The notes beneath the pieces were generated by a model. That model ran no database searches. It saw only the letters and a list, made by a program, of their open reading frames with translations, and had not been told where the DNA came from. Made by a program: the position numbers and the translations under genes. From Parabacteroides sp. PF5-9 (GTDB lineage: Bacteria > Bacteroidota > Bacteroidia > Bacteroidales > Tannerellaceae), in the NCBI RefSeq assembly GCF_029893105.1, contig NZ_JARXWG010000013.1, positions 1 through 64,000 of the forward strand: a stretch of DNA of 64,000 nt, read 5' to 3'. Below, in pieces: positions 47,907-58,240 of this stretch. Numbering within the stretch: position 1 is the first letter of the stretch; each line of letters opens with the position of its first letter.

Positions 47907-48010
47907 ACCTCCGTTTTTTGTTAGAGGTACCTCTAAATGAATTTACACCTACCTCTAAACAGATTTAGACGTACCTCTAAATTATTTTAGACGTACCTCT
48001 AACAGAAAAG
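47907..48010. repeat. 22-nt periodic intergenic array C
   Basis: ACCTC(T/C) begins at 47907, 47929, 47951, 47973 and 47995, exactly 22 nt apart. Unit pattern ACCTCTAAA...TTTAGACGT. Arms 47912-47930 (GTTTTTTGTTAGAGGTAC) and 47993-48010 (GTACCTCTAACAGAAAAG) are inverted repeats. It lies between the terminator at 47852 and the 3' end of purN. Confidence 0.88.
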
Positions 48011-56500: not shown

Positions 56501-57841
56501 TTAAAGCCCGAAATACCATGTCGCAATAGAGAAATAAATCATGACTCCGCAAATATCGGCAATCGAGGTGATCAAAGGAGCACTGGCCGTTGCCGGGTCG
56601 GCTTTGAACTTCGTAAAAACAAAAGGTAATAACATCCCTAACAGGCTTCCGACAATCACCGTAATCACCATGGTAAGAGCCACGACAACCACCACTTCCG
56701 GAGCACGAAAACCGGCTATAAGCGAAACTCCGACTGCCATTGTTGCTCCTAATAAGAAAGAGACCAACAACTCTTTTCCTAACAATCTGATCCAATCTTT
56801 GGTTTCAACATCTCCCGTTGCCAGCGCCCGAATCATCAGTGTAGCCGACTGAGACCCTGCATTCCCTCCACTGCCGATCAGTAGCGGTAGGAAAAAGACC
56901 AGTGAAACAACCGCTCCAATCACTGCTTCGAAACTGGCAATTGCTGCACCTGAAAAGACATTCATAAAAACCAATACAGTAAGCCACAATACACGCTTTT
57001 TATACAAAAAACCAACACGGGCTTTCAACGGATTGATCACGCCCTCCTGAAGCGAACCGAATTTATGGAAATCTTCCGTATTTTCTTCTTCCACCACATC
57101 GATGACATCATCTATCGTCACAATGCCTACCAATACCCCATTGGTATCTATAACAGGAAGTGCCACACGGTCATAATCTTTAAATACTTTGACGGCGACC
57201 TCCTGATCATCATACGCCTTTAAAGCGACGAACCGATTATCGACCAATTCTGAGATCCGTTGATCGGGTGAAGCCAGGATCAACTCTTTCATCCGCAGAT
57301 CATCGATCAACTTCCAGTTTTCATCAACGACATAAATCACATTGAGTGTTTCCGAATCGCGCCCGTAAATCCGGATATGATCCAACGCCTGTGCCACGGT
57401 GAAATAAGGTTTGACTGCTACATATTCAGGAGTCATCAACCGTCCGATACTATCTTCGGGATAACCGAGCAAACGACGTGTAATCTCCCGCTCTTCTTCC
57501 GACATAATCTGCATCAACCGTTGGCTGACTTTGCCGGGCAACTCTTCAAAGAAGGCGGTACGATCATCCGGATCAAGATCATTCAACAGATCAGCAATCT
57601 GATTGCTATTGGCTGCAAGTCCTTTGATCACATCCTCCTGCTCATCATGCAATAGGTGCTGAAAAACCTCTTTAGCCTGCTCGCGCGACAAAAGACGAAA
57701 AAGGATAATCTGATCTGTTTTGGATAGTTCACCGATTGTTTCGGCGATCTGATGTGGGTTAAGGTCGTTTAGTGCTTGTTTAAGTATTTTCCATTTTTTT
57801 GCTTCTATAAGAAGCTGAAATTCCATTTTGAATTCGTTCAT
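56501..57841 (-). CDS. mgtE: Magnesium transporter MgtE
   Basis: A 446-residue Mg2+ channel: N-terminal superhelical domain (residues 1-130, AETIGELSKTDQIILFRLL), two CBS domains (about 131-255) and five membrane segments from about 285 (GSGGNAGSQSATLMIRAL is the pore signature). The cytosolic domains close the channel at high Mg2+. The mRNA leader carries a strong Shine-Dalgarno and two competing hairpins (57849-57900), unusual for this phylum. Confidence 0.95.
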   Translation of the reverse strand: MNEFKMEFQLLIEAKKWKILKQALNDLNPHQIAETIGELSKTDQIILFRLLSREQAKEVFQHLLHDEQEDVIKGLAANSNQIADLLNDLDPDDRTAFFEELPGKVSQRLMQIMSEEEREITRRLLGYPEDSIGRLMTPEYVAVKPYFTVAQALDHIRIYGRDSETLNVIYVVDENWKLIDDLRMKELILASPDQRISELVDNRFVALKAYDDQEVAVKVFKDYDRVALPVIDTNGVLVGIVTIDDVIDVVEEENTEDFHKFGSLQEGVINPLKARVGFLYKKRVLWLTVLVFMNVFSGAAIASFEAVIGAVVSLVFFLPLLIGSGGNAGSQSATLMIRALATGDVETKDWIRLLGKELLVSFLLGATMAVGVSLIAGFRAPEVVVVVALTMVITVIVGSLLGMLLPFVFTKFKADPATASAPLITSIADICGVMIYFSIATWYFGL

Positions 57842-57848
57842 GCGTTTT

Positions 57849-57904
57849 CCTCCTTACAAATTTAACTCTGTAAGGAGAGCGTGCAGTACCCCTTACAGAG
57901 AGTT
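57849..57904 (-). promoter_or_regulatory. Putative riboswitch-like leader of mgtE
   Basis: In the mgtE mRNA, segment B (CUCCUUACAGAG, 57877-57866) can pair with upstream segment A (CUCUGUAAGGGG, 57900-57889; 12 bp, one G-U) or, through CUCCUUAC, with downstream segment C (GUAAGGAG, 57857-57850; 8 bp). Segment C contains the Shine-Dalgarno AAGGAGG, seven bases before the AUG. A-B frees it and B-C hides it. Confidence 0.7.
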
Positions 57905-58011
57905 AATACTCCTGTTTTCTCTGTTTACTACAACTCGGTACGTCGTCCATAATGAAATTGTATAAATGAATAATTGAGTCTAATCAGCAGACTCTGTTCT
58001 AAAATCCGCGG

Positions 58012-58019
58012 CAAAGGTA
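58012..58019 (-). promoter_or_regulatory. -7 promoter element of mgtE
   Basis: TACCTTTG on the minus strand (TAnnTTTG). It gives a leader of about 165 nt containing the putative switch. The remaining sequence of the 57842-58314 gap outside the leader and array D shows no gene. Confidence 0.55.
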
Positions 58020-58130: not shown

Positions 58131-58240
58131 AGACGTACCTCCGTTTTTTGTTAGAGGTACGTCTAAAACAATTTAGAGGTACGTCTAAATTCATTTAGAG
58201 GTAGGTGTAAAACATTTTAGAGGTACCTCTAACAGAAAAG
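58131..58240. repeat. 22-nt periodic intergenic array D
   Basis: TTAGAGG begins at 58151, 58173, 58195 and 58217, exactly 22 nt apart; ACCTCC at 58137 is the head. It shares its head (ACCTCCGTTTTTTGTTAGAGGTAC) and its tail (ACCTCTAACAGAAAAGT) with array C, but the inner units are in the opposite orientation. Located between the DUF3137 gene 3' end and the mgtE promoter. Confidence 0.88.

Follow-up and report, generated by a model that had tools for sequence, protein, structure and literature searches.

How is translation of the magnesium transporter gene mgtE controlled in Parabacteroides sp. PF5-9, where a single strand of the mRNA leader can pair with either of two others, and one of the resulting hairpins hides the ribosome-binding site? 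The gene lies in a stretch of 64,000 nucleotides that was analysed as a whole and is called the window here. Its product scores 413 bits against TIGR00400 (cut-off 233), contains MgtE_N, CBS and MgtE domains, and has MgtE 2yvx as its nearest solved chain. The Shine-Dalgarno sequence of mgtE is unusual for the phylum. Ribosomes of Bacteroidota seldom use such sequences, and of the 45 window ORFs that do not overlap and reach 200 aa, only mgtE has a 6-nt match ahead of it. The features of the locus are collected in the table.

Features of the mgtE leader and gene in the window
Feature	Coordinates	Strand	Basis or remark
Putative promoter -7 box TACCTTTG	58012..58019	-	read from sequence
Upstream ORF (uORF) MDDVPSCSKQRKQEY with stop TAA (57905-57903)	57903..57950	-	across 61 leaders the start, an acidic codon 3, Pro at codon 5 and the position of the stop are conserved
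Z, GUACC in uORF codons 4-5, partner of Y	57937..57941	-	own pairing beats permuted; 5 bp only in window
A, anti-sequestor strand CUCUGUAAGGGG	57889..57900	-	sequence, alignment, covariation
Y, GGUAC, 3′ end of A and A-B loop	57886..57890	-	Z:Y pairing tests
B, strand common to both helices, CUCCUUACAGAG	57866..57877	-	alignment, covariation
C, GUAAGGAGG, mgtE Shine-Dalgarno	57849..57857	-	7 nt 5′ of AUG
mgtE, magnesium transporter, 446 aa	56501..57841	-	ATG at 57841; TIGR00400 equivalog

The -7 consensus of Bacteroidota promoters is TAnnTTTG, and boxes like the putative one of the window were seen by eye 5′ of the uORF in many leaders of relatives. Between the putative promoter and the uORF a hairpin, GAGTCT-loop-AGACTC (57994-57976), is predicted in the window leader; no counterpart was seen in the relatives' leaders inspected.

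In the window, A:B consists of 12 bp with one G-U pair, and B:C of 8 bp, with flanking pairs that lengthen the helix. Because B is common to both, the two helices are mutually exclusive. Folding of the B-C region was better than that of all 200 dinucleotide shuffles (z -4.7). For the A-B-C region z was -2.3, with 3 of 200 dinucleotide shuffles equally good, and for the entire window leader -2.9, with 1 of 200 as good. Among 24 aligned leaders A:B was 92% paired, with double-sided changes at 7 of 11 pairs, and B:C 98% paired, with double-sided changes at 4 of 8; none of 500 shuffles matched the paired cells and covariation score of A:B and B:C. The helices were also examined in a permutation test in which the windows were placed by position only and own partners were compared with permuted ones. 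With 43 leaders z was -11.0 for A:B and -9.8 for B:C, and in neither case did any of 20000 permutations do better than the own partners; the strictest set, of 13 leaders, still gave 0 of 20000 for both helices, and the controls ranged from z -1.7 to +0.1. A simple ungapped search found at least 3 nt of B common to A:B and B:C in 51 of 61 leaders, and no shared B in the other 10 (L041, L048, L053, L129, L137, L138, L142, L144, L146, L150). The original prediction, made from the letters of this DNA, had placed the three segments and their exclusion, had pointed to a strong Shine-Dalgarno sequence of a kind rare in these bacteria, and had proposed covariation in relatives as its own test. The segments and the Shine-Dalgarno are as it described them, its claim of rarity agrees with the ORF count above, and both helices turn out to be kept in relatives through compensatory changes.

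The window uORF, of 15 codons, lies directly 5′ of A, and its stop is 2 bases ahead of A. An ORF ending just before or inside A was present in all 61 complete leaders assembled; in a subset of 33, 19 had the stop ahead of A and 14 had it at A or inside it. These uORFs have 10-21 codons and begin M-[D/E/K/N]-[D/E]-x-P. Codon 2 is D in 47, K in 8, E in 4 and N in 2; codon 3 is acidic throughout (E 39, D 22); codon 4 is G in 34, D in 17, V in 8, and I and T in 1 each; codon 5 is Pro in all except one, which has S; and codon 6 is Y in 44. In pairwise comparisons of 43 non-redundant leaders, differences at the first, second and third codon positions were 0.087, 0.157 and 0.465 for codons 2-5, and 0.556, 0.496 and 0.489 for codons 6-9. 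Judged by these differences, codons 2-5 vary in a coding manner and later codons do not. At least 10 codons were open in frame 0 in 61 of 61 leaders and in the other frames in 38 and 17, a count that is partly by construction, as each uORF was chosen as the ORF opening at the ATG of the model start; the even length of the uORFs is not.

The remainder of the peptide is different in character. From codon 7 onward acidic residues make up 4% and basic ones 21%. The stretch GUAUUAA occurs in 15 of 43 leaders, where the frame makes it either KY or EY with the stop, or part of VLTSL-like ends. By this comparison of sequences the tail is not kept as peptide, and the start is the conserved part. Reading of the tail in differing frames favours an event at the N terminus over a C-terminal arrest peptide, which was ruled out on this ground. 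Codon 2 is GAC in 46 of the 47 uORFs with Asp, and codon 6 is TAT in all 44 with Tyr. These near-invariant third bases point to some nucleotide-level constraint as well, and count against a purely peptide-level reading.

In a third predicted helix, uORF codons 2-6 pair with the loop 3′ of A. In a first test of Z:Y the own pairing came to -9.93 kcal/mol against -8.13 for permuted partners (0 of 20000; controls z -2.3, +0.1 and -1.8). The permutation test gave z -5.6 and 0 of 20000 with 43 leaders and 5 of 20000 with 24; with the strictest 13 the figure was 1189 of 20000, and significance was lost. Leaders with a weak Z:Y include L011, L040, L129, L130, L133 and L142. Y touches A only at its edge, and Z:Y may form a pseudoknot with A:B.

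To establish how widely the leader occurs, MgtE loci and whole genomes were searched. All 10 MgtE genes at least 50% identical to that of the window, among 36 genomes of the family (its own included), have the uORF and A-B-C; the leaders of some family members are identical to Tannerellaceae/Parabacteroides records (L034, L045, L052). Within L032-L056 of the genome scan, 22 of 24 Bacteroidota loci have the leader, the exceptions being L042 and L056; L035 is cut by a contig end and shows A-C only. A second, distant MgtE type (27-30% identity) appears to be without it: model R2, built from 52 leaders, gave no match at E ≤ 0.01 among 36 control loci (21 of this second type, 15 others) in a scan that left out L065, L069 and L071-L111, and its weak match to L056 had E 0.44. 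Across the order, model R1 (24 leaders) detected the leader at E ≤ 0.01 in 34 of 393 genomes, from 26 of 207 genera. R2, at E ≤ 0.05, did so in 40 of 393 genomes, from 29 of 207 genera; the match in one of these genomes, G176 (L152), was judged false. The weak model match L145 was likewise judged false on reading. A scan of the class gave 4 of 395 genomes at E ≤ 0.01; three belong to this order, and the fourth (G486, E 0.004) does not. A pattern of promoter plus uORF matched 25 of 364 genomes of the order, 17 of which were already known leaders, and 10 of 365 of the class; the matches L156/L197 and L182/L196 are coding sequence, and the remaining ones looked like coding noise. By these scans the leader is almost confined to one order of Bacteroidota.

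The genes that follow the leader belong to several families. The first 30 loci read comprised 19 leaders ahead of mgtE and 11 ahead of corA. In the full set of 61, from which the cut L035, the false L145 and L152, the duplicates L034, L036, L038, L045, L051 and L052, and L113, L116, L117 and L122 (the same leaders as L001, L037, L004 and L048) were left out, the gene is mgtE in 41, corA in 15, an operon of MgtE_N/CBS and Nramp genes in 4, and an mgtA-type ATPase in 1. All 15 CorA proteins are above the Pfam CorA cut-off, and the ATPase (L147/L194) scores 1222 bits against 611 for TIGR01524, a Mg2+ P-type ATPase. In the two-gene operons (PRC-barrel/MgtE_N/CBS and Nramp) both proteins were checked in L192, L193 and L195, and the first gene only in L149; these operons are reminiscent of the MgtE-fragment/Nramp pairs that the M-box precedes in other bacteria. 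The Nramp protein of L192 best matches 7qia (E 1.6e-115; the next match has 1.8e-24), which is EleNRMT, an uncoupled Mg2+ transporter (PMC8806188). The two proteins have the stretches NDAGG and TTIAPW in common, in agreement with DxxG-TxxA, the signature by which that paper characterises magnesium-type Nramps (PMC8806188). An outgroup pair from Acidobacterium, an Nramp with an MgtE-like or fragment partner, was reported probably to carry mainly manganese (PMC4072509), so it is the residue signature, together with the match to EleNRMT, that assigns our Nramps to Mg2+. Going by family, the genes behind the leader import Mg2+ and are of four unrelated importer types. No leader was found on the corA gene of the window genome itself. 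In L010 (G029:C69:59296-60619) mgtE matches in two overlapping pieces with an internal stop, a broken gene or an assembly error, and the leader is intact.

We asked by folding what a ribosome on the uORF would do to the helices, with an assumed ribosome footprint. In nascent RNA, before C is made, the mean predicted probability of A:B was 0.81 when the leader carried no ribosome, 0.91 when one sat on the first codons and 0.02 when one stood at the uORF stop. These means cover the 33 of 43 leaders in which a B is shared; the window leader gave 0.90, 0.90 and 0.08. These values suggest that completed uORF translation removes the anti-sequestor and that aborted translation leaves it. As the search for the B of B:C began 8 nt 3′ of the uORF stop, the finding that B is clear of a terminating ribosome is partly built in. 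In the finished leader at equilibrium B:C was favoured in every state (0.87 with no ribosome, 0.71 with an N-terminal ribosome, 0.91 with a stop ribosome; 43 leaders), and the Shine-Dalgarno was unpaired at only 0.12, 0.21 and 0.08, respectively. The corresponding values for the window were 0.09, 0.07 and 0.06, the N-terminal ribosome giving no opening. Equilibrium folding was therefore rejected as proof of switching, and the ON state has to be fixed while the RNA is transcribed, through co-transcriptional trapping, or be aided by further factors.

The presence of a conserved uORF ending on A in 61 of 61 leaders makes a translating ribosome the likely sensor. We consider it probable that the leader is a translational attenuator run by its leader peptide, with low Mg2+ sensed through faltering ribosomes. 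Given sufficient Mg2+, a ribosome would finish the uORF and at its stop would cover most of A, leaving B free; with A masked, B would pair with C, hiding the Shine-Dalgarno and turning transporter synthesis off. When Mg2+ is low, ribosomes would be destabilised or paused at the early acidic and Pro codons and would never reach A, which would then pair with B once B is made, so that C stays open and the transporter is produced. Z:Y would be an extra helix that competes with A:B when the start of the uORF carries no ribosome. Translation of the uORF, ribosome drop-off on it, the response to Mg2+ and the direction of regulation are all steps that we infer from this anatomy.

A similar arrangement is described for enteric leaders. 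In Salmonella, translation of mgtB depends on D2 and E5 of mgtQ, with stems 1:2 and 3:4 set against 2:3, and stems 1:2 and 2:3 excluding each other (PMC8092293). Like the leaders described here, mgtQ is a short ORF with early acidic codons (2 and 5) and an early proline (Pro4, within stem 1), a Mg2+ importer has its ribosome-binding site hidden by the last stem, and control is at translation (PMC8092293). A:B and B:C correspond to mgtQ stems 2:3 and 3:4, and Z:Y may correspond to stem 1:2. The two differ in that mgtQ has 8 codons and a strong Shine-Dalgarno of its own and lies inside an operon of enterics, between mgtC and mgtB (PMC8092293), whereas the present uORF has 10-21 codons and lies in the 5′ leader of mgtE, corA, an Nramp operon or mgtA; the mgtC-mgtB position was encountered at none of the loci read. 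On E. coli MgtL, ribosomes dissociate at EPDP when Mg2+ is low (PMC11282234). Like the peptides here, that of mgtL (E. coli/Salmonella mgtA) begins with acidic residues and Pro, two alternative RNA structures are involved, and efficient uORF translation turns the importer off, as we propose here (PMC11282234, PMC11552253). It acts through Rho-dependent transcription termination, whereas the anatomy of our leader suggests the Shine-Dalgarno as target. The corL uORF precedes enteric corA, and its translation opposes corA expression, as it would here; it differs in being Rho-dependent, with a UUG start and fewer Pro and acidic residues (PMC11552253). What mgtL and mgtQ combine was found together in the present leaders, namely an early acidic/Pro uORF, alternative structures that a ribosome could steer (by prediction and covariation) and a Mg2+ importer downstream (by family). 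No homology of the leader to Salmonella mgtQ or E. coli mgtL was found.

The uORF attenuator could be real and yet have a cue other than Mg2+ acting through early destabilisation of ribosomes, such as charged tRNA, ATP, the level of a translation factor or another metal. Salmonella mgtM and mgtP are leader ORFs that answer to ATP and charged tRNA-Pro (PMC8092293), and the Acidobacterium pair, reported to carry mainly manganese (PMC4072509), would suit another metal. We regard such a cue as unlikely, as the leader is common to four Mg2+ importer families, EleNRMT, a Mg2+ transporter, is the nearest match of the Nramp protein examined, and a single Pro codon followed by a variable remainder does not suggest an amino-acid attenuator.

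Direct binding of Mg2+ or another ligand by the RNA of Z, A, Y, B and C, perhaps as an A:B/Z:Y pseudoknot, with the ORF incidental, would account for three covarying helices and for the nucleotide-level constraint on codons 2 and 6. The gene classes also match those of the M-box (ykoK), which precedes mgtE, corA, mgtA and MgtE-fragment/Nramp operons and differs in being a large aptamer without a uORF (PMC4072509). The three-base periodicity of codons 2-5, a frame 0 open in 61 of 61 leaders and a stop on A would not be expected of an aptamer, and the alignment is without a large conserved unpaired core; a ligand-binding riboswitch is thus rather improbable. The leader was correctly said at the outset to be unlike the M-box: no Rfam family reached its gathering score in the window, 13 leader loci gave only a tRNA, and the M-box and other Rfam families were ruled out accordingly. 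A permissive scan of the leader returned six sub-threshold matches, the best being MIR6019 (24 bits against 100); uup RNA matched with 16 bits against 36.8 at 57850-57877, on the other strand. A search for phage relatives gave no match. The mgtE motif of Thioalkalivibrio and the corA motif of Gammaproteobacteria are likewise structured leaders before mgtE or corA; they are riboswitch candidates and differ in being reported by their authors from those groups only (PMC11109978, PMC6429828). Of the suggestion that the leader is a new compact switch sensed by Mg2+ or a protein, a conserved translational switch before a Mg2+ transporter survives; sensing by the RNA itself does not fare well, given the uORF in 61 of 61 leaders. 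The uORF, the Z:Y helix and the module's extension to genes of the corA, Nramp and mgtA kinds had been overlooked.

A fixed hairpin that tunes translation without sensing, B:C holding expression low and A merely overlapping, would agree with a Shine-Dalgarno mostly paired in all states at equilibrium, but is very improbable, as it needs less than two exclusive helices with double-sided changes, a conserved peptide start and four importer families.

No leader peptide of Bacteroidota that responds to Mg2+ is known to us. Literature searches, with subscription papers and preprints outside their scope, returned neither such a peptide in this phylum nor a description of this element. Attenuation of Mg2+ transport by a uORF is known from enterics; as far as searched, the element, the phylum and the reach over four importer families are new. 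Extending the peptide-run attenuator to the order as a whole, we see an even chance that Bacteroidales have a Mg2+ regulon element of their own, one mobile leader with ribosome instability on an early acidic/Pro peptide as its sensor. It would have arisen independently of the enteric leaders and spread to four importer classes, its first codons serving both as destabilising peptide and as a strand of the RNA switch, and it would hold the place that the M-box has in Bacillus. If confirmed, this would mean that Mg2+ sensing through ribosome stability has evolved more than once and is no enteric peculiarity, and that a single leader sequence predicts the Mg2+ regulon across Bacteroidales. The leader also offers a compact system for studying how ribosomes that rarely use a Shine-Dalgarno are gated by one.

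Elsewhere in the window a near-palindromic repeat, TTAGANGTACNTCTAA, is clustered at 58151-58237 and 47921-48002, with a spacing of 22 or 44 bp. It has 322 exact sites in the 3.69-Mb genome, against 0 matches for the reversed control pattern, and resembles a family of abundant intergenic repeats or of binding sites.
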